NCBI GenBank assembly: GCA_947625235.1
Contig: CANQNP010000002.1
Location: forward strand, 1-64,000
Direction of reading: 5' to 3'
Source: an uncultured Atopobiaceae bacterium
Lineage (GTDB): Bacteria > Actinomycetota > Coriobacteriia > Coriobacteriales > Atopobiaceae
DNA: 64,000 nt
The notes below the pieces were generated by a model, which saw only the letters and a program-made list of their open reading frames with translations, was not told the DNA's origin and searched no databases. Both the position numbers and the translations under genes were made by a program. Of the stretch, positions 43,725 through 51,958 are shown in pieces. Each line of letters starts with the position of its first letter. Within the stretch, counting starts at the first letter, position 1.

Positions 43725-44756
43725 CTAGCGCGGGGGCGCGTCCGCCTCGTCCGCCGCATCCTCCGAGGACGGCTTCTGGGCGGGATCGTCCGATGCCGCG
43801 CCCGCCCCCACGCCGGCCGTCGCGGGGCTCGCGTCCCCTTGGGCCTGGCCCGCGCCTTCTGCCGCCTGGCCCGCGCCTTCTGCCGCCTGGCCCGCACCTT
43901 CAGCCGCGCTACCCGCGCCTTCTGCCGCGCTGCCCGCGCCTTCTGCCGTGTGGCCCGCGCCTTCGGCCGCATGCTCGACCCCGGACCCCACGGCCTCCAT
44001 GGTGCGCCCCACGCTCGCCACGACGTCCGCCACGTCACGCACGACCGGCGTGGCGGCCACGATGCGCTTCACGGGCTTCACCACGATGGGCGAGAGGTCC
44101 ACGGCCTGCGGCGAGAGCCAGTCGTACCTCCTCGAGAGCCACCAGAGTCCCATGCCGATGACGACGCAGATGAAGCACGCCGTCTCCTTCACCATGCCCG
44201 CGTGCACGCACACGTAGTAGGCGAACGACCCCGCCACGGCGCAGAGCGCGTAGAAGTTGCCGCGGCGGAAGATCTTCGGCACCTCGCCGAGCACCATGTC
44301 GCGGAGCATGCCGCCGCCCACGGCCGTCATCGTGCCGAGCATCACGCTCGCGAAGATGGAGAGCGAGTAGAGCACGGCCTTCTCGGTGCCGGACGCCGCG
44401 AAGAGCACCACCGAGAGGATGTCCACCCAAGGCAGCAGCTTCTCGAGCTTCAGCACGAGGCCGCTGAAGAAGAACACGACGAGCGTGGCGAGGAGGCAGA
44501 GCGGGATCGCGATCGGCGAGGTGATCATGTAGACGCCGCCACGCTGCAGGATCATGTCGCGGATGAGGCCGCCGCCGAGGCCGCACATGATCCCCAGCGC
44601 CACCGAGCCGAGCAAATCGAGCTTGTGCTCCTTCGCCGAGAGCGAGCCGAACGCGGCGCCCACGATGATGGCGGCGATGTCGAGCCAAGCCGGCATCACG
44701 AGGTCGGTGTTCGTAGGCTCCATGGTGGTGAAGATGTGTTTTAGCAGCTCTTCCAT
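43725..44756 (-). CDS. TRIC channel/UPF0126 family membrane protein with repeat tail
   Basis: This 343-residue protein has about seven membrane helices containing the twin family motifs GLGGGLIRDMIL and AVGGGMLRDMVLGE, as in the YicG/TRIC monovalent cation channel family. The core ends near residue 215. The C-terminal 125 residues are soluble and contain about six 7-residue AAEGAGx repeats. ATG 44756 is preferred over an upstream GTG because GGGAG lies at the right distance. It ends just before the thioesterase gene. The tail is not part of the family norm. Confidence 0.88.
   Translation of the reverse strand: MEELLKHIFTTMEPTNTDLVMPAWLDIAAIIVGAAFGSLSAKEHKLDLLGSVALGIMCGLGGGLIRDMILQRGGVYMITSPIAIPLCLLATLVVFFFSGLVLKLEKLLPWVDILSVVLFAASGTEKAVLYSLSIFASVMLGTMTAVGGGMLRDMVLGEVPKIFRRGNFYALCAVAGSFAYYVCVHAGMVKETACFICVVIGMGLWWLSRRYDWLSPQAVDLSPIVVKPVKRIVAATPVVRDVADVVASVGRTMEAVGSGVEHAAEGAGHTAEGAGSAAEGAGSAAEGAGQAAEGAGQAAEGAGQAQGDASPATAGVGAGAASDDPAQKPSSEDAADEADAPPR
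43842..43973 (-). repeat. 21-base tandem repeat encoding AAEGAGx
   Basis: About six tandem 21-base units (ccgcgccttctgccgcctgg-like on the plus strand) encode HAAEGAG, HTAEGAG, SAAEGAG twice and QAAEGAG twice. Because each unit is a whole number of codons, unit gain or loss would alter tail length without breaking the frame. Confidence 0.85.
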
Positions 44757-44808
44757 GGCCACTCCCGCGCTCTCTTGGGGATTTGGGGTCTTCGTGCTGA
44801 GAGTAGGG

Positions 44809-44814
44809 TATACT
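44809..44814 (+). promoter_or_regulatory. Candidate -10 of the tRNA-Ser genes
   Basis: TATACT on the plus strand lies 13 bases before the first tRNA-Ser. The -35 side is weak (TTGGGG at an over-long spacing), so the call rests on the hexamer and its distance from the mature 5' end. Confidence 0.45.
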
Positions 44815-44827
44815 CGTTCAGCGCTAA

Positions 44828-44918
44828 GGAGAGTTGTCCGAGTGGTCGAAGGAGCACGACTGGAAATCGTGTAGGCGCCTCAAGCGTCTCCAGGGTTCAA
44901 ATCCCTGACTCTCCGCCA
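44828..44918 (+). tRNA. tRNA-Ser (GGA)
   Basis: This class II tRNA has acceptor GGAGAGT paired with ACTCTCC, an anticodon loop ctGGAaa between CACGA and TCGTG, a long variable arm (AGGCGCCTCAAGCGTCTCC region), a T-loop GGTTCAAATCC, and an encoded CCA. It reads UCC/UCU serine codons. Confidence 0.97.
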
Positions 44919-44964
44919 GCCAATTTCGCGGCGTCCCCGGCCGGGGGCGCCGCGTGCTCCCTCC

Positions 44965-45055
44965 GGAGGGGTGGCAGAGCGGTTGAATGCGGCGGTCTCG
45001 AAAACCGTTTGGCGCTTTTCGCGTCACGGGGGTTCGAATCCCCCCTCCTCCGCCA
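44965..45055 (+). tRNA. tRNA-Ser (CGA)
   Basis: This class II tRNA has acceptor GGAGGGG paired with CCCCTCC, an anticodon loop ctCGAaa between GCGGT and ACCGT, a long variable arm, GGTTCGAATCC in the T-arm, and an encoded CCA. It reads UCG. Its 3' end is the source of the repeated fragments found over the next 350 bases. The 46-base spacer from the first tRNA contains a GC-rich inverted repeat (GCGGCGTCCCC/GGGGGCGCCGC). Confidence 0.97.
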
Positions 45056-45119
45056 GAAACAACAAGCCGGCCTTTTGGCCGGCTTTTTGTTTCTCGCGGA
45101 GGAGGGGGGATTCGAACCC
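45030..45119 (+). terminator. Terminator at the centre of a 43-base-arm palindrome
   Basis: GCCGGCC-TTTT-GGCCGGC followed by TTTTTGTTT is a textbook intrinsic terminator of the tRNA transcript (about 45064-45092). The inverted repeat does not stop there. The arms extend to 45030-45072 and 45077-45119 with only two mismatches, and include the T-arm and acceptor 3' strand of the tRNA-Ser itself. The tRNA 3' end is thus copied in opposite orientation just beyond its own terminator. Confidence 0.85.
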
Positions 45120-45225
45120 GCGAGGGCTTGACGAGCCCTTGTGGCTCGTCAAGGAGTGGAGGGCCGAAGGCCCGGAGCTCAGCGGAAATGCGAAGCATTT
45201 CCGCGTCGAATCCCCCCTCCTCCGC
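45096..45225. repeat. Three-hairpin element closed by inverted tRNA-Ser 3' ends
   Basis: A perfect 20-base inverted repeat (45096-45115 with 45206-45225), both arms derived from the tRNA-Ser 3' end, encloses three consecutive hairpins. These are CTTGACGAGC/GCTCGTCAAG (45127-45153), GGGCC/GGCCC (45161-45173) and GCGGAAATGC/GCATTTCCGC (45182-45204). Neither strand encodes a protein. The cloverleaf-like arrangement could form in DNA or in RNA of either strand. No known family is recognised. Confidence 0.75.
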
Positions 45226-45295
45226 CCTCTAAAGAATCCCAGCCGCAGGCTGGGCACTGATTTAGCCGAAAGCCACTCATGAATCCTTGCCACGA
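45213..45295. repeat. Direct repeat copy 1 (tRNA-tail module)
   Basis: This 83-base unit starts with CCCCCTCCTCCGCC (tRNA-Ser 3' end) and contains the hairpin CCCAGCC/GGCTGGG. It ends in ATGAATCCTTGCCACGA. It matches copy 2 at about 73 of 83 positions by eye, without gaps. Confidence 0.85.
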
Positions 45296-45387
45296 GCTAA
45301 AAGCGCATTTCCGCGTCGACTGTGCGCGCAGCTTAAGAGCCTAAATATGTTCGCTGCGCGCTCTGAACGATCCACTGGATCGTTCAG
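45296..45387. repeat. Spacer with two hairpins between the direct repeats
   Basis: This segment holds a second copy of GCATTTCCGCGTCGA (45305-45319; first copy 45195-45209). A 9-base-pair hairpin GCGCGCAGC/GCTGCGCGC follows (45324-45361), then an 11-12-base-pair hairpin centred on 45375 (CTGAACGATCC/GGATCGTTCAG). It is non-coding. Confidence 0.7.
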
Positions 45388-45470
45388 CCCCCTCCTCCGC
45401 CCTCCACAGAATCCCAGCCGCAGGCTGGGCGCTGATTTGGCCGAAGACCCTCCATGAATCCTTGCCGCGA
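45388..45470. repeat. Direct repeat copy 2 (tRNA-tail module)
   Basis: This is the second copy of the 83-base unit, again beginning with the tRNA-Ser 3' fragment CCCCCTCCTCCGCC and containing CCCAGCC/GGCTGGG. Most differences from copy 1 lie in one short patch (positions 56-62 of the unit). Confidence 0.85.
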
Positions 45471-45594
45471 ACCCGAGAGGGCGCGAGAAGCCCTTGTGGC
45501 GGATCAAGGCTCGCGCCTTGATCCGCTTTCTCGCCCTCCGCATAGACGGCGGTCCAGACGGCCGAAGATCACGGCCATCTGGAACCTTGCTATG
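45471..45594 (-). terminator. Nested hairpins downstream of typA
   Basis: A 12-base-pair hairpin GCGGATCAAGGC/GCCTTGATCCGC (45499-45526) is nested in an outer stem GAGGGCG..GAGAA (45477-45490 with 45527-45538). A further 9-of-10 hairpin CCAGAcGGCC/GGCCaTCTGG (45554-45582) is closed by CATAG/CTATG (45541-45594). These lie 30-150 bases after typA and could end its transcript, but no U-run follows. They look like part of the same repeat array. Confidence 0.5.
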
Positions 45595-45623
45595 CGGGTC
45601 AACAAATCTGGCGCGGGCTTGTG

Positions 45624-47486
45624 TTACGCGAGCTTGGCGACGCGGCCTCGCCTCACGTTGTCCTTCTTGCGCTCGTTCGTGTCGAGGATGCGCTTTCTCA
45701 GGCGGATGCTCTCGGGGGTGATCTCCACGAGCTCGTCGTCAGCGATGTACTCGAGGGCCTCCTCGAGCGTGAAGGTGCGTGGCGGGGTGAGCTGCACGGC
45801 GATGTCGGCCGTGGAGGAGCGCTGGTTGCCGAGGTTCTTCGTGCGCGCGACGTTCACGGTCATGTCGCCCGCGCGCGAGCGCTCGCCCACGATCATCCCC
45901 TCGTAGCACTCGTCGCCGGGGCCCACGAAGAGCTGGCCGCGCTCCTGCAGCGTGCCGAGCGCGTAGGCCACCGCCTTCTCCGTGGCCATGGAGATCATCG
46001 CGCCGTTCGAGCGCTTCTCGAAATCGCCCGCGTAGGGGCCGTATTCGAGGAACGTGTGGTAGAAGACGCCCTCGCCGTGGCTCGCGTTCAAGATGCGGTT
46101 CTTGAGGCCGAGGATGCCGCGGGTGGGGATGGAAAACTCGAGGTGGCACGTGGTGCCGTTCGAGGCCATGGACACGAGCTGGCCGCCCGCGCCGCCGAGG
46201 ATCTCGATCATCTTGCCCGAGACGTCGTCCGGGCACTCGATGACGGCCTGCTCGATGGGCTCGAGGCGCTCGCCGTGCTCGCCCTTCGCGAAGAGCACGC
46301 GCGGCCGGGCCACCTGGAACTCGAAGCCCTCGCGGCGAAGCGTCTCCATGAGCACGGAGAGGTGGAGGATGCCGCGGCCCTTGACCTCGATGCCGCCGAC
46401 GCCACCACCCGCCGCCTCGCCCGCGACCTCGCTGATCTCCATCGTCACGTTGTTCTCGGCCTCGCGAAGGAGCCGATCGCGCAGCTGCCGGCCGCCCACG
46501 ATCGAGCCCTCGCGCCCCACGAGCGGCGAGGTGGAGGCCTCGAAGATCACGGCCATGGTGGGAGGGTCGATGCGGATGGGGGCGAGCTCCTGCGGGGCCT
46601 CGGAGCTCGTGAGCACGTCGCCGATGTCGACGCCGTCGATGCCCACGACGGCGCAGATGTCACCCGCGGCCACCTCGCTCGCGTCTTGGCGTCCGAGGTA
46701 GTCGAAGGTGGAGAGCTGCTTCACGGTGGCGCTCTCGCGCTCGCCGTCGTTCTTCAAGACGAGCACGCCCTCGCCCGCGTGGACGGTGCCGGAAAACACG
46801 CGCCCGATGCCGATGCGGCCCACGTAGCTCGAGTGGTCCACCGTCATCACCTGCATCGCGAGCGGCGCCGCAGGGTCGGCGTCGGGCGCGGGCAGCCACT
46901 CGATGATGGTGTCGAGGAGCGGCAGCATGTCCATGTTGCCGTCGCCCGGCTCGAGGCGCGCGTAGCCGCGCGCGGCCGAGGTGTAGACCACGTGCTCGAG
47001 CGCGAACTCGAGCTGCTCGTCGCTCGCGCCGAGGTCCATCATGAGGTCGAGCGAATCGTTCACCGCGCGCTCGGGGTCGGCACCGTCGCGGTCGATCTTG
47101 TTCACCACGAGGAGCACCTGGAGGCCCGCGTCTATGGCGTGGCGGAGCACGAAGCGCGTCTGCGGCATGGGGCCCTCGTAGGCGTCCACCAAAAGGAGCG
47201 CGGAATCCGCCATCTTGAGCACGCGCTCCACCTCGCCGCCGAAGTCGGCGTGGCCCGGCGTGTCGATGACGTTGATCTTCACGCCGGAGTAGGTGATGGA
47301 GATGTTCTTCGCGAGGATGGTGATGCCGCGCTCGCGTTCCTGGTCGTTCGAATCGAGCACGCGCTCCGTCACCTGCTGGTTCTCGCGATAGGCGCCGGTT
47401 GCGCGAAGCAGCTGGTCCACGAGCGTGGTCTTGCCGTGGTCCACATGCGCGATGATGGCGACGTTCCTAAGCTGCTCCTGAAGCAC
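45624..47486 (-). CDS. typA: Translational GTPase BipA/TypA
   Basis: This 620-residue ribosome-associated GTPase acts in 50S assembly and stress adaptation. The G domain has IIAHVDHGKTTLVDQLLR (G1), RGITILAKN (G2), VIDTPGHADFGGEVERVL (G3) and VVNKIDRDGADPERA (G4). EF-G-like domains III and V and the BipA-specific C-terminal domain (RKRILDTNERKK) follow. The start is GTG 47486 with GGGAGG just upstream. No paralogue is nearby, and there is no tetracycline-resistance-type N-terminus. Confidence 0.95.
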   Translation of the reverse strand: MLQEQLRNVAIIAHVDHGKTTLVDQLLRATGAYRENQQVTERVLDSNDQERERGITILAKNISITYSGVKINVIDTPGHADFGGEVERVLKMADSALLLVDAYEGPMPQTRFVLRHAIDAGLQVLLVVNKIDRDGADPERAVNDSLDLMMDLGASDEQLEFALEHVVYTSAARGYARLEPGDGNMDMLPLLDTIIEWLPAPDADPAAPLAMQVMTVDHSSYVGRIGIGRVFSGTVHAGEGVLVLKNDGERESATVKQLSTFDYLGRQDASEVAAGDICAVVGIDGVDIGDVLTSSEAPQELAPIRIDPPTMAVIFEASTSPLVGREGSIVGGRQLRDRLLREAENNVTMEISEVAGEAAGGGVGGIEVKGRGILHLSVLMETLRREGFEFQVARPRVLFAKGEHGERLEPIEQAVIECPDDVSGKMIEILGGAGGQLVSMASNGTTCHLEFSIPTRGILGLKNRILNASHGEGVFYHTFLEYGPYAGDFEKRSNGAMISMATEKAVAYALGTLQERGQLFVGPGDECYEGMIVGERSRAGDMTVNVARTKNLGNQRSSTADIAVQLTPPRTFTLEEALEYIADDELVEITPESIRLRKRILDTNERKKDNVRRGRVAKLA

Positions 47487-48214: not shown

Positions 48215-51200
48215 CTAGTACATGCCGTGCCAGACGGGATCTTCCTCTTGATAGCCAAGGCTCACGAGGTAGTCGATCTCCTCTCTGTCCGTGGAGCAGT
48301 GGTGCGCGGCGGGACCATCCACGGCGTAGGGGTTGTAGAGGCGAATCATCGGCTTCGCGCCCGCCGCGTCCGAATAGAACGCGGGCTGTCCCTCGAATTC
48401 GAGCTGCCACCCGAGATCCGAGAGCTCCTGGACCTCCGACCACTTGCTGGTATAGAGGTGCTCGGTGCTGTAGGGGTTGAAGAGGCGGTAGACGGGCACC
48501 TCGGACCACGCGGGCACGGAGAGCGGGTTCTTCGCCGTCTCATCGGTCCACCCGCGGCCCACGAGATCTTTGTATTCGGTGCTGCTCGTCGTGAAGAGGT
48601 GCTCGCCGCTCCACTGGTTGTAGAGACGGAACTGCTCCCTGGGCGAACCTTCGGGGTTATTCGGGTCGAAGCCCTCCGGCACCTCGCCCACGTTCACCGC
48701 GAAACCGGAGATCGACTGGGCGTGCGTGGCCGTCGCGGCGCGGGCCACGATGAACTCGCAGGTGCCCTGGCGCAGTGCGGTGATGGTCACCTCGTTGCCC
48801 GCCACCTCGGCATACGCGATGTCGTGGTCGTTGGAGATGGCGATGATCGCGCCGTCACCCTCGCCGCCAACCGAGATGGTGGTGGGCCTGCTGCCGGGGA
48901 TGAGCTCGAGCTTCAGGCTTTCGAGCTCCACCGAGGACTCGGGCTTGTTGAGCGAAGTGCCGCCCTTCGCCTTGGAGTAGTTGAACGACGACATCGCCGC
49001 GTCGAGCGTGGCCTTCGTGTGGTCCACGTGCTTTTGCGTGGCGTCGGCGTTACCGAGCTCCTTCTGGCCGTGCGCGACGGAGCGCTCGAGGACGCTCATC
49101 ACCTCAGGGGTCACCCAGTCGACGTTGGCCGGCACGTCCTTGCCGTCCTCGGAGCTCGCGGCGGTGCTCATGAGGTTGTTCGCGGCGAGGAGGGTCTCGC
49201 CGAGTTCCCTCTTCTCGACCACGACTTCCGGCTCCGTTGGCGTCGTGGGAGTGTCGGATCCGCCAGAGCCACCCGAACCACCAGAACCACCAGAACCACC
49301 AGAGCCGCCGGATCCGCCGGGCGTCGAAGGCGATTGCGCCAACGGCTTATAGGTGCCGGTGAGCACGGTGTAGTTGTCGTTGTGTGGCGTGTAGGTCCAG
49401 CCATAGGACTTGCCGGCCACGACGCTCTCGTTCGGCGTGTCCCACTCCACCGTGCCATTGAGCTTTTCGCTGCCGATGCCCGCGAACGTGCTTGCGCTGA
49501 GGTGGTAATCGGAGAGCTTCGGGCCGCTCCCGGTGACCGTGGGATAGCCGATGGGCGTGGCCTTGTTGATCACGATTTGGCCGGAGGTCTCGGACCCTTC
49601 GTACTGGTGGCCGTCCGGGAGGGTCACCACGACCTTGTAGTCCCATGTGCCCGCGTTCGTGGGCGGCGTATGCTGGAAGCCATTGTTGTCCTTGAGGTCG
49701 TACGTCACCTCATAGCTCGCCTCGCTCACGTTTGGCACGAGCGTCACCGTCACGGAATGCGGCTTGGTGTTGTAGTCGCCCGTCTTGCCCGTGACGTCGG
49801 CCTGCACCGCGTCCTTCGAGGTGATGTGCACCTTCGCGACCCCCGTGGTCGTGGTGTAGTTGGTCACATCGACGGGATGGAAGGTGAAGCGGTACTCGAC
49901 CGCTTGGCCAGAGGCGCCGCTGATTGCCTGATCCCCGTTCTCCCAGTTCGCATAGCCGGCCACGCTGTTGCCGTTGTGGGGATTCTTGCCGGCGATGTTG
50001 AGCACGATGTTGTTGAGCGGCGTACCCGCCTTGCCCGAGCCGGCCACGATTTCGGCGTCGAACACCGGGGTGGCCTTCGTCACCTTGTAGAGGCTCGAGG
50101 TTGAGACGGTGTAGTTCGAATTGCTCGACTTGGCGGTGATCGCGTAGCCGTTGGTGTTCACGGCCGCGCCGGGATCGGTCGCCTTGCTCGAGAGGTTCAC
50201 CGCGCTCACGTTGTCCCCGTGTGCCACTCCTTCGATGATGAGGACGCTCGAGGGCAGCGTCCCGGTTTCGCCGTATACCTTCGACTTATCGAGGCTGAAC
50301 GTGAGCGGCTTCGGGGTGATGGTGAGCGTGGCCGTTGCGTAGCCGGGCGCGTAGTCCTTCGTGGCCGCGGTCTTCACCACCACGTCATAGACGCCCACAT
50401 CCTTGGGCTCAGTGGGCAGGCCGTTGTAGGTGATGGTCATCGTGCCGTCGGAAGTCACCTTGGGCGTGACCTTCTTCGCGGTGCCGTCGTACACGAAGCT
50501 TTCGCTGGCAACGCTGAGGCCAGCGGGCGTGCCGTCGCGACCGACCCACGTGACCGTCGCGGACGACTCATACGGTACGTAGTAGTCCTTGTCGTTGCCC
50601 TTAGGCACGAACCGATACCTCTGGACGGACGTGGTGCTCTTCCCGCTCACGGGACTCATGGAGAACGTGGGGTCGACCCACTCGAAATCACCCTCGACCT
50701 CGATGCTTCGATCCCACATGTTCGCCATCCTGCCCGTGGGAGGATGCTCATTAAGCGTTTCCCCTGCTTGGAACTGCGATATCTTCACCGGGTCTCCGAT
50801 GACGGAGAGCGTCGATGGCAGCACCTCGACCTGGAGCGTGGGGAGGGAGCCAGTGATGTTGTACTTATGGCTATCCACGAGATTGTAATTCCCGCTAATG
50901 GATTTCCTCTCCAGCGTGGGAGCGGTGAGGCCGAGCTCCCCGAGGGTCATCTTTCCCAAGGTGGTATCCACCTGCTCGCGGGAATAGTTGACGCTCGCAC
51001 CGTAGTTTCGCGTGTGCTTGACTACGGGGTCGAGAATCTTGAGCTCGTCCATTATGAGGTTGAGCTTGATCTTGATCGGGTCCAGCGAAAGTCGCACGAA
51101 GAAGATTTCGCCGTCCTTCTCCAGAGGCTTGGAGGGACGCCCTGCCGGATTAAGCTTCACCGTGATGGTGGCATGATCCTTGGGCGCGACCGAACCCTTA

Positions 51201-51505
51201 TCCGTCTTTATCGTGAAGAAGGTGCCGGACGTGATAGGGGTGATCTGGATGTACTCCTCCGTGTTGTTGGTGATGGTGAAGGTCTTTTCCGGCTGCTGGT
51301 CAAACTCGTCGTACTTCACATCGCCGAAGTTCACCTCGCCGGTACTCGCCTCGACCTTCCCCGCCTCCATGGGGTAGGCGGTGTGCTCGCGAGAAGCGTT
51401 CGTCTGTGCCTCGGCGAGGGTGGGCGCTTGGATGGCGGCGAAGGCGCCGAGGCCCACGAGGGCGGCCGCGAAGGCCGCCGCAAGGACTTTCTTCATGCGT
51501 TTCAA
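48215..51505 (-). CDS. Large secreted Ig-like repeat protein
   Basis: This surface or secreted protein is about 1,096 residues. A signal peptide (MKRMKKVLAAAFAAALVGLG...AEA, about 33 residues) is followed by an ASH-like beta domain (VNFGDVKYDEF...TFTITNNT) and several MBG/Ig-like repeats (VYDGTAKKVTP, YNTKPHSVTVTL). A (GGS)n linker lies at about 49256-49320, then a helical segment and a Big-2-like domain. Three C-terminal repeats of the FRLYNQWSGEHLFTTSS type (DUF5648-like) close the protein. No LPxTG-type signal or membrane anchor is visible. I prefer TTG 51505, 5 bases after GGAGCCATC; ATG 51496 is the alternative. Function is probably adhesion or glycan contact (inference). Confidence 0.85.
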   Translation of the reverse strand: MKRMKKVLAAAFAAALVGLGAFAAIQAPTLAEAQTNASREHTAYPMEAGKVEASTGEVNFGDVKYDEFDQQPEKTFTITNNTEEYIQITPITSGTFFTIKTDKGSVAPKDHATITVKLNPAGRPSKPLEKDGEIFFVRLSLDPIKIKLNLIMDELKILDPVVKHTRNYGASVNYSREQVDTTLGKMTLGELGLTAPTLERKSISGNYNLVDSHKYNITGSLPTLQVEVLPSTLSVIGDPVKISQFQAGETLNEHPPTGRMANMWDRSIEVEGDFEWVDPTFSMSPVSGKSTTSVQRYRFVPKGNDKDYYVPYESSATVTWVGRDGTPAGLSVASESFVYDGTAKKVTPKVTSDGTMTITYNGLPTEPKDVGVYDVVVKTAATKDYAPGYATATLTITPKPLTFSLDKSKVYGETGTLPSSVLIIEGVAHGDNVSAVNLSSKATDPGAAVNTNGYAITAKSSNSNYTVSTSSLYKVTKATPVFDAEIVAGSGKAGTPLNNIVLNIAGKNPHNGNSVAGYANWENGDQAISGASGQAVEYRFTFHPVDVTNYTTTTGVAKVHITSKDAVQADVTGKTGDYNTKPHSVTVTLVPNVSEASYEVTYDLKDNNGFQHTPPTNAGTWDYKVVVTLPDGHQYEGSETSGQIVINKATPIGYPTVTGSGPKLSDYHLSASTFAGIGSEKLNGTVEWDTPNESVVAGKSYGWTYTPHNDNYTVLTGTYKPLAQSPSTPGGSGGSGGSGGSGGSGGSGGSDTPTTPTEPEVVVEKRELGETLLAANNLMSTAASSEDGKDVPANVDWVTPEVMSVLERSVAHGQKELGNADATQKHVDHTKATLDAAMSSFNYSKAKGGTSLNKPESSVELESLKLELIPGSRPTTISVGGEGDGAIIAISNDHDIAYAEVAGNEVTITALRQGTCEFIVARAATATHAQSISGFAVNVGEVPEGFDPNNPEGSPREQFRLYNQWSGEHLFTTSSTEYKDLVGRGWTDETAKNPLSVPAWSEVPVYRLFNPYSTEHLYTSKWSEVQELSDLGWQLEFEGQPAFYSDAAGAKPMIRLYNPYAVDGPAAHHCSTDREEIDYLVSLGYQEEDPVWHGMY

Positions 51506-51958
51506 GATGGCTCCTCTCGGGGAGTGCCATGGGGCGTGGACAGGCAACGAGCGCTGCGGAAACTTCGCCCACCCCGCAGTCGCTCGCGTGCCGAAGCGCT
51601 TCCAGACCCCAGCGCGCGGTTTTTAGATAAGGGGAAGTGTACGTGGCGTGAACGACGACCGGCAAGTGGCATTCAAAAACCGATCACCGGAGTACACAAA
51701 CACATCACGGAGCGCCCGCGCACGACGCCGCACGGCCGTGCTATGGGCACGCGGGCCAGCGCGAAGCGTCATCTGGCTTCGCGCTCCACGGGATCGCGAC
51801 AGAAAGATGGCACGGAGCCGCGGGATTGCGCGCGACGGGTATGCTTGTGGCAACAGGCGAGACCCGCTCCTGTGTCGTCATGAAGTCAGCGGGCGACGCT
51901 TCTATTTGCGGGGCCGAGCGGCAACTCGGCCCCGGCGCCTTTTAGCGGGTGGTTTCCG
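51506..51958. other. Non-coding stretch with a small structured segment
   Basis: I find no convincing gene in these 450 bases. The last 100 bases contain nested complementary blocks (CCCGCT/AGCGGG at about 51869-51899) and a hairpin GGGGCCGAG/CTCGGCCCC (51910-51933) followed by GGCGCCTTTTA. The order, structure then hairpin then T-run, resembles a leader or small RNA ending in an intrinsic terminator on the plus strand. No known riboswitch motif was recognised. Confidence 0.4.

Follow-up and report, generated by a model that had tools for sequence, protein, structure and literature searches.

The structured element at 45096–45225 of the window (the whole stretch of 64 000 nucleotides analysed here) is probably a single unit belonging to a family of tRNA-tail repeats in the Coriobacteriales, a family that is maintained and spread mainly as hairpin DNA by way of homology to the tRNA T-arm. 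Members of this family lie behind tRNA genes, are framed by the 3′ tail of the tRNA that they follow, grow in tandem, exchange their cores and conserve their helices strongly and in a DNA-like manner.

Architecture of the element

Two tRNA-Ser genes were located in the window with ARAGORN, one with anticodon GGA at 44828–44918 and the other with anticodon CGA at 44965–45055. The second is the host of the element, the parts of which are as follows.

44965–45055, plus strand: tRNA-Ser(CGA), the host gene, the 3′ tail of which frames the element (ARAGORN; Rfam RF00005)
45056–45095, no strand assigned: palindromic Rho-independent terminator hairpin of tRNA-Ser(CGA), terminator-like on either strand (sequence analysis)
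45096–45119, minus strand: inverted tRNA-Ser tail (acceptor 3′ strand plus T-arm), the left arm of the closing stem (repeat search)
45117–45126, plus strand: hp0, mini-hairpin CCC-GCGA-GGG, with a family-wide invariant stem and a GNRA loop (fold; covariance helix 2)
45127–45153, plus strand: hpA, 11 bp hairpin with loop CTTGT; across the family of fixed length with a hypervariable, covarying stem (fold; alignment)
45154–45180, plus strand: hpB, a stem interrupted by a symmetric internal loop of purines (GGA/GGA) and capped by C(GAA)G (fold; alignment)
45182–45204, plus strand: hpC, 10 bp hairpin with a C(GAA)G triloop (fold)
45206–45226, plus strand: direct tRNA-Ser tail, T-loop through CC, the right arm of the closing stem (repeat search)
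45106–45214, plus strand: hit of covariance model R1 for the Coriobacteriales core, scoring 71.7 bits (E = 4e-14 for a search of the window)
45305–45401, plus strand: second, partial unit with the alternative core type E2, ending in a tRNA-Ser tail copy (45388–45401)
45468–45509, plus strand: further core fragment, 81% identical to 45113–45154 (repeat and genome comparison)

The closing arms (45096–45115 and 45206–45225) are 20 nt long and 100% complementary, in agreement with a preliminary description of the element as closed by a perfect 20 bp stem of tRNA-Ser tails in inverse orientations. The right arm is part of an exact 21 nt direct copy of the tRNA-Ser(CGA) tail (45034–45054 = 45206–45226), and the left arm sits within a 46 nt, 93% inverted repeat of tail plus terminator (45027–45072/45077–45122). 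That description placed three hairpins inside the stem; the interior does consist of hairpins, but the helices number four (hp0, hpA, hpB and hpC). Folded as RNA, 45096–45225 reaches −100.7 kcal mol−1 (z = −12.1, with 0 of 200 shuffled sequences as good), and as single-stranded DNA it gives z = −13.2 on the plus strand and −11.8 on the minus strand; either way the structure far exceeds chance expectation. Its characterization as a non-coding structured element built on tRNA tails is right. The window holds one full unit plus partial ones, and the E2 module of the partial unit at 45305–45401 is also present in another locus (L002).

An Rfam scan of the window returned no family matching the element, weak sX4 and microRNA hits being due to the tRNA and the palindrome. 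The sX4 sRNA (RF02223) was considered and set aside; it scored 58.9 bits at 44951–45110, below its gathering score of 70, and the match spans the tRNA-Ser gene and its terminator rather than the element.

Location behind tRNA genes and the tail frame

The general order of a unit runs from the CCA end of the tRNA through the terminator hairpin, the inverted T-arm or tail, hp0–hpA–hpB–hpC and the direct tail (T-loop to CCA) to the terminator again, the tRNA terminator recurring in each unit in relatives of the window element. The inverted copy generally comprises the T-arm, and in the genus of the window often the whole tail; its match to its own tRNA is perfect over 7–8 nt in most genera and over up to 21 nt in the genus of the window. 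Tandem arrays of two or three units are found at many loci, with the final unit truncated inside the core.

The preliminary description would have regarded the element as a one-off had there been neither a transcript nor a second copy in any related genome. Such copies are common, and they stand beside other tRNA genes. With a covariance model (R1) constructed on 20 units, the core was recovered in 49 of the 140 genomes of the family to which the window belongs, with up to 15 copies, and in 148 of the 397 genomes of the order Coriobacteriales; in a sample of 396 genomes from the phylum, the matches were confined to this same order. When 84,980 species genomes were scanned with a pattern, independently of tRNA annotation, the hits were mostly metagenome assemblies of Coriobacteriales, from Atopobiaceae and from lineages of the rumen and termite gut, together with a single assembly of Saccharibacteria. 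The latter carries two units with their own tRNA tails (L094 and L235, on contigs C49 and C41), representing either inter-phylum transfer or a binning error.

There is next to no probability that the element is a one-off rearrangement or a short-read assembly artefact. The genome containing the window is admittedly an assembly of 148 contigs (1.73 Mb), but this reading is refuted by the recurrence of the same layout in the single-contig genomes G361, G276, G253, G168 and G192, which therefore exclude an assembly artefact, and in the finished genome of E. coli K-12.

The suggestion that tRNA-Ser ends in particular are targeted did not hold. The hosts of the units represent 12 amino acids (Ser, Arg, Ala, Lys, Glu, Val, Leu, Gly, Phe, Thr, Trp and selenocysteine in related genomes), and each unit has the tail of its own host; window-genome relatives, for instance, lie behind tRNA-Arg(ACG) and tRNA-Ala(GGC) and are framed by the respective tail. 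Over 85 distinct units, representing 48 tails and 12 amino acids, the direct copy is identical to the adjacent tRNA at a mean of 19.43 out of 20 positions, and none of the 85 fits any other tail as well as its own. Since the units were picked by the first 12 tail positions, it is positions 13–20 that provide a fair test of this rule, and here 645 of 672 positions (96%) are identical to the adjacent tRNA. The rule poses the question of how each copy gains the 3′ end of its host tRNA. The terminal repeats of the units vary with the host tRNA, whereas classical DNA transposons and MITEs are recognized by constant terminal inverted repeats.

Among 45 loci found by pattern that also match the model, 43 follow a tRNA 3′ end. 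A same-strand tRNA lies within 700 bp upstream in 37 of them, and the other six are separated from the tRNA by an integrative element of 4.5–5 kb or stand behind an attR-like tRNA 3′ half; of the remaining two matches, one is at a contig edge and one is without clear placement. Small integrative elements (4.5–5 kb) lie between tRNA-Phe and the repeat array in L080 and L136, and a small integrative element or an attR-like tRNA 3′ half occupies the same position in L093, L104 and L118. A tyrosine-integrase-like protein is encoded in L080, L136, L093 and L104.

It is improbable that the units themselves are mobile DNA, shifted by an integrase that acts on the folded single strand in the manner of attC sites, with the tRNA tail as attachment site. 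The tail copies do start in the T-loop, the crossover point of many tyrosine integrases, the hairpins are perfect on both strands, and the tyrosine-integrase elements that separate the array from tRNA-Phe in L080 and L136 would suit such a mechanism. However, in those two elements the repeated part of the tRNA starts at the anticodon loop and not at the T-loop, the units have no coding partner, and no obvious integrase cargo was seen downstream of truncated units. Units are also absent from viral, phage and plasmid collections (the 130-mer had no match in the phage and plasmid collections and IMG/VR gave no pattern match to units), and units laid out alike are found in E. coli, where no integrase is known to be tied to tyrT-type repeats. 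The likeness to integron attC sites lies in the imperfect single-strand palindrome, with structure kept while sequence varies; unlike attC sites, the units are without a gene cassette and their arms are host tRNA tails.

Helix conservation, core exchange and proposed mode of spread

In an alignment of 20 units, 96.8% of the pair cells are standard pairs and 20 pairs are changed on both sides, providing the compensatory stem changes for which the preliminary description had proposed to look. The covariation score of this alignment is 0.451, compared with 0.111 when shuffled and at most 0.084 when slid. The stem of hpA is hypervariable, with 51 different 5′ arms among 67 parsed units, the pairs of which comprise 722 Watson–Crick, eight G·T and seven mismatched pairs; because the parse demanded a reasonably good stem, mismatches are somewhat undercounted, G·T pairs less so. 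The G·T share in hpA is 1.1%, against 6.7% in the acceptor and T-stems of the tRNAs at the loci concerned (p = 1e-8). A C(GNA)G triloop closes hpC in 58 of 84 units and only three of 69 neighbouring terminators. As a DNA mini-hairpin, the sequence GCGAAGC is exceptionally stable (PMC4686876). The combination of covarying, G·T-poor helices with C(GNA)G triloops hints that the unit folds as DNA, and the rarity of G·T pairs together with the triloops suggests that selection or correction acts on the DNA; G·T pairs could, however, also stay rare if copies exchanged entire hairpins. Hairpins that covary and are yet poor in G·T pairs indicate that covariation alone need not imply a functional RNA.

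A functional structured RNA is nonetheless a possible, though less likely, explanation. According to this proposal, a read-through or local transcript would be cut at the tail copies by tRNA-processing enzymes and act in trans, as proposed for rtT of E. coli. The strong covariation of the core, the GNRA loops of hp0 (likewise typical of RNA) and the identity of the 3′ end of the unit with a tRNA end are all consistent with this, but each core is preceded by a terminator, no σ70-like promoter was found in 44700–45650, G·T pairs are rare in hpA and the distribution, with 49 of 140 family genomes positive, is patchy and fast-changing.

Core types E1 and E2, which have different hairpins, and E1/E2 hybrids occupy the same tRNA-tail frame. 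Behind tRNA-Val(TAC), for example, the core is E1 in G005 and G004 and E2 in G000, the species of the window, within the same frame, and the flanks of G005 and G000 are collinear over 800 bp. At one locus (L096), the differences between two nearly identical tandem units are concentrated in hpA and in the loop of hp0. As these two units show, and as does the sharing of one frame by E1, E2 and hybrid cores, exchange of whole hairpins does take place. The E2 core consists of two short hairpins around a long stem, as seen in loci L189, L190, L179 and L183 of G000.

For the favoured reading, in which the unit is kept and spread mainly as hairpin-forming DNA, we infer from the sequences a mechanism of spread through the T-arm and tail. 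A T-arm sequence shared by many tRNAs, GGGTTCGANTCCC, would serve as a short homology for insertion of the core behind a tRNA; the core would enter by recombination or template switching at the T-arm, giving a new copy flanked by the tail of its host. In one genome (G005), a GGG T-stem is present in nine of ten carrier tRNAs and in 15 of 36 others (p = 0.011). Copying guided by the T-arm would explain the tRNA-only location, the junctions in the T-loop, the own-host tails and the GGG T-stems of the carriers. Unequal recombination between the tail-plus-terminator repeats would let arrays grow and shrink, in keeping with the spread of RtT copy numbers in E. coli given below, and template switching within hairpins would keep the arms matched. 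Any transcript of such a unit would be rtT-like, with a 3′ end resembling that of a tRNA.

Relation to E. coli tyrT repeats and to other repeats

The closest parallel in layout is found at the tyrT/tyrV locus of E. coli, where the classical 178 bp tyrT repeats and RtT RNA reside. This locus shows an inverted tail (GGGGAAGGAT), hairpins and a direct tail, in three units and a truncated fourth. The tyrT repeats have been known for decades and, to our knowledge, have no accepted function. From 1 to 14 RtT places were found per E. coli genome. In strain K-12, proK and serX are followed by units with their own tails, terminator and second unit included; lysQ is followed by a terminator, an inverted T-arm, hairpins and a direct tail, and the other lys tRNAs by shorter forms with a direct tail. 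No such units were present downstream of proM, proL, serT, leuZ and glnX in the K-12 loci read. The RtT-type units downstream of proK (3708616, L239) and serX (1097565, L242) are unannotated in the K-12 entry (NC_000913), and in another E. coli strain an RtT sRNA is annotated behind tRNA-Pro (L238). In E. coli, rtT RNA is genuinely transcribed and has been tied to the stringent response (PMC4986893), which keeps an RNA role for such units in consideration; rtT-like sequences have been reported in BIMEs (PMC2965389).

Like the tyrT repeats, the window element lies directly downstream of a tRNA gene and carries a direct copy of the adjacent tRNA 3′ end, and in its relatives the units stand in tandem with the last one truncated. 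The likeness extends to the frame of inverted and direct own tails and to the several short inner hairpins, and in K-12 proK and serX likewise obey the own-tail rule, which holds partly for the lys tRNAs. Some strings are common to RtT and the Coriobacteriales units, for example GAGCGTTGCCGCAGGCAACG and GAGGAGCGAAGCGACGA; common strings such as GAGCGTTGCCGCAGGCAACG may reflect either distant common descent or convergence on stable hairpins.

The cores, in contrast, are different. The RtT model (RF00391) gave no match at E ≤ 0.1 in 11 Coriobacteriales loci, while scoring 133–138 bits in E. coli; it matched none of 60 related genomes and gave nothing even at E = 10 in four loci. Conversely, model R1 reaches only 13.9 bits on E. 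coli. The 11 bp hpA is absent from RtT, hp0 and the order of the modules are unlike, and the inverted arm takes up to 21 nt of the tail in the genus of the window compared with 7–10 nt in RtT. It is therefore well supported that the Coriobacteriales units belong to the tyrT-repeat kind by layout and, having a different core, form a family separate from RF00391. The earlier statement that the element fits no known RNA family is thus correct with respect to sequence, for which RF00391 gives no match, but not with respect to layout.

Finding this layout around another core in a second phylum, behind a dozen kinds of tRNA, turns an E. coli curiosity into a general kind of tRNA-tail repeat and opens the way to comparative tests. 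More doubtful is the broader proposal of a class of tRNA-hopping hairpin-DNA elements that would use the T-arm as landing homology and adopt the tail of the tRNA on which they land, with the Coriobacteriales units and the E. coli tyrT repeats as two branches. No earlier report of tRNA-linked repeats in Coriobacteria was found in the open-licence literature, and a prior mention is possible.

The units also resemble REP and BIME sequences, which are likewise short, intergenic, hairpin-forming modular repeats, but differ in their link to the 3′ ends of tRNAs and in having tails specific to the host as a frame. A Y1 transposase (RAYT) was rejected as a partner of the units, PF01797 being scattered, missing in the unit-rich G005 and G013 and present in the unit-less G067.

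Within the window, the core fragment at 45468–45509 runs into an unrelated genus-wide intergenic hairpin repeat. This separate repeat (45494–45616; GGCGGCTCAAGGCTCGCGCCTTGAGCCGC..., then inverted GGATGG/CCATCC blocks) is often tandem and also occurs on contigs C2, C17, C32, C39, C41 and C63 of G000 with no link to tRNA. Its assignment to the same family as the tRNA-tail units was rejected because it is found at gene ends away from tRNAs. Further downstream, an open reading frame of 1110 amino acids on the minus strand (48215–51547) has the look of a surface protein built of repeats; it contains Gly-Ser linkers and, near the C-terminus, repeats of the YNPYS type.
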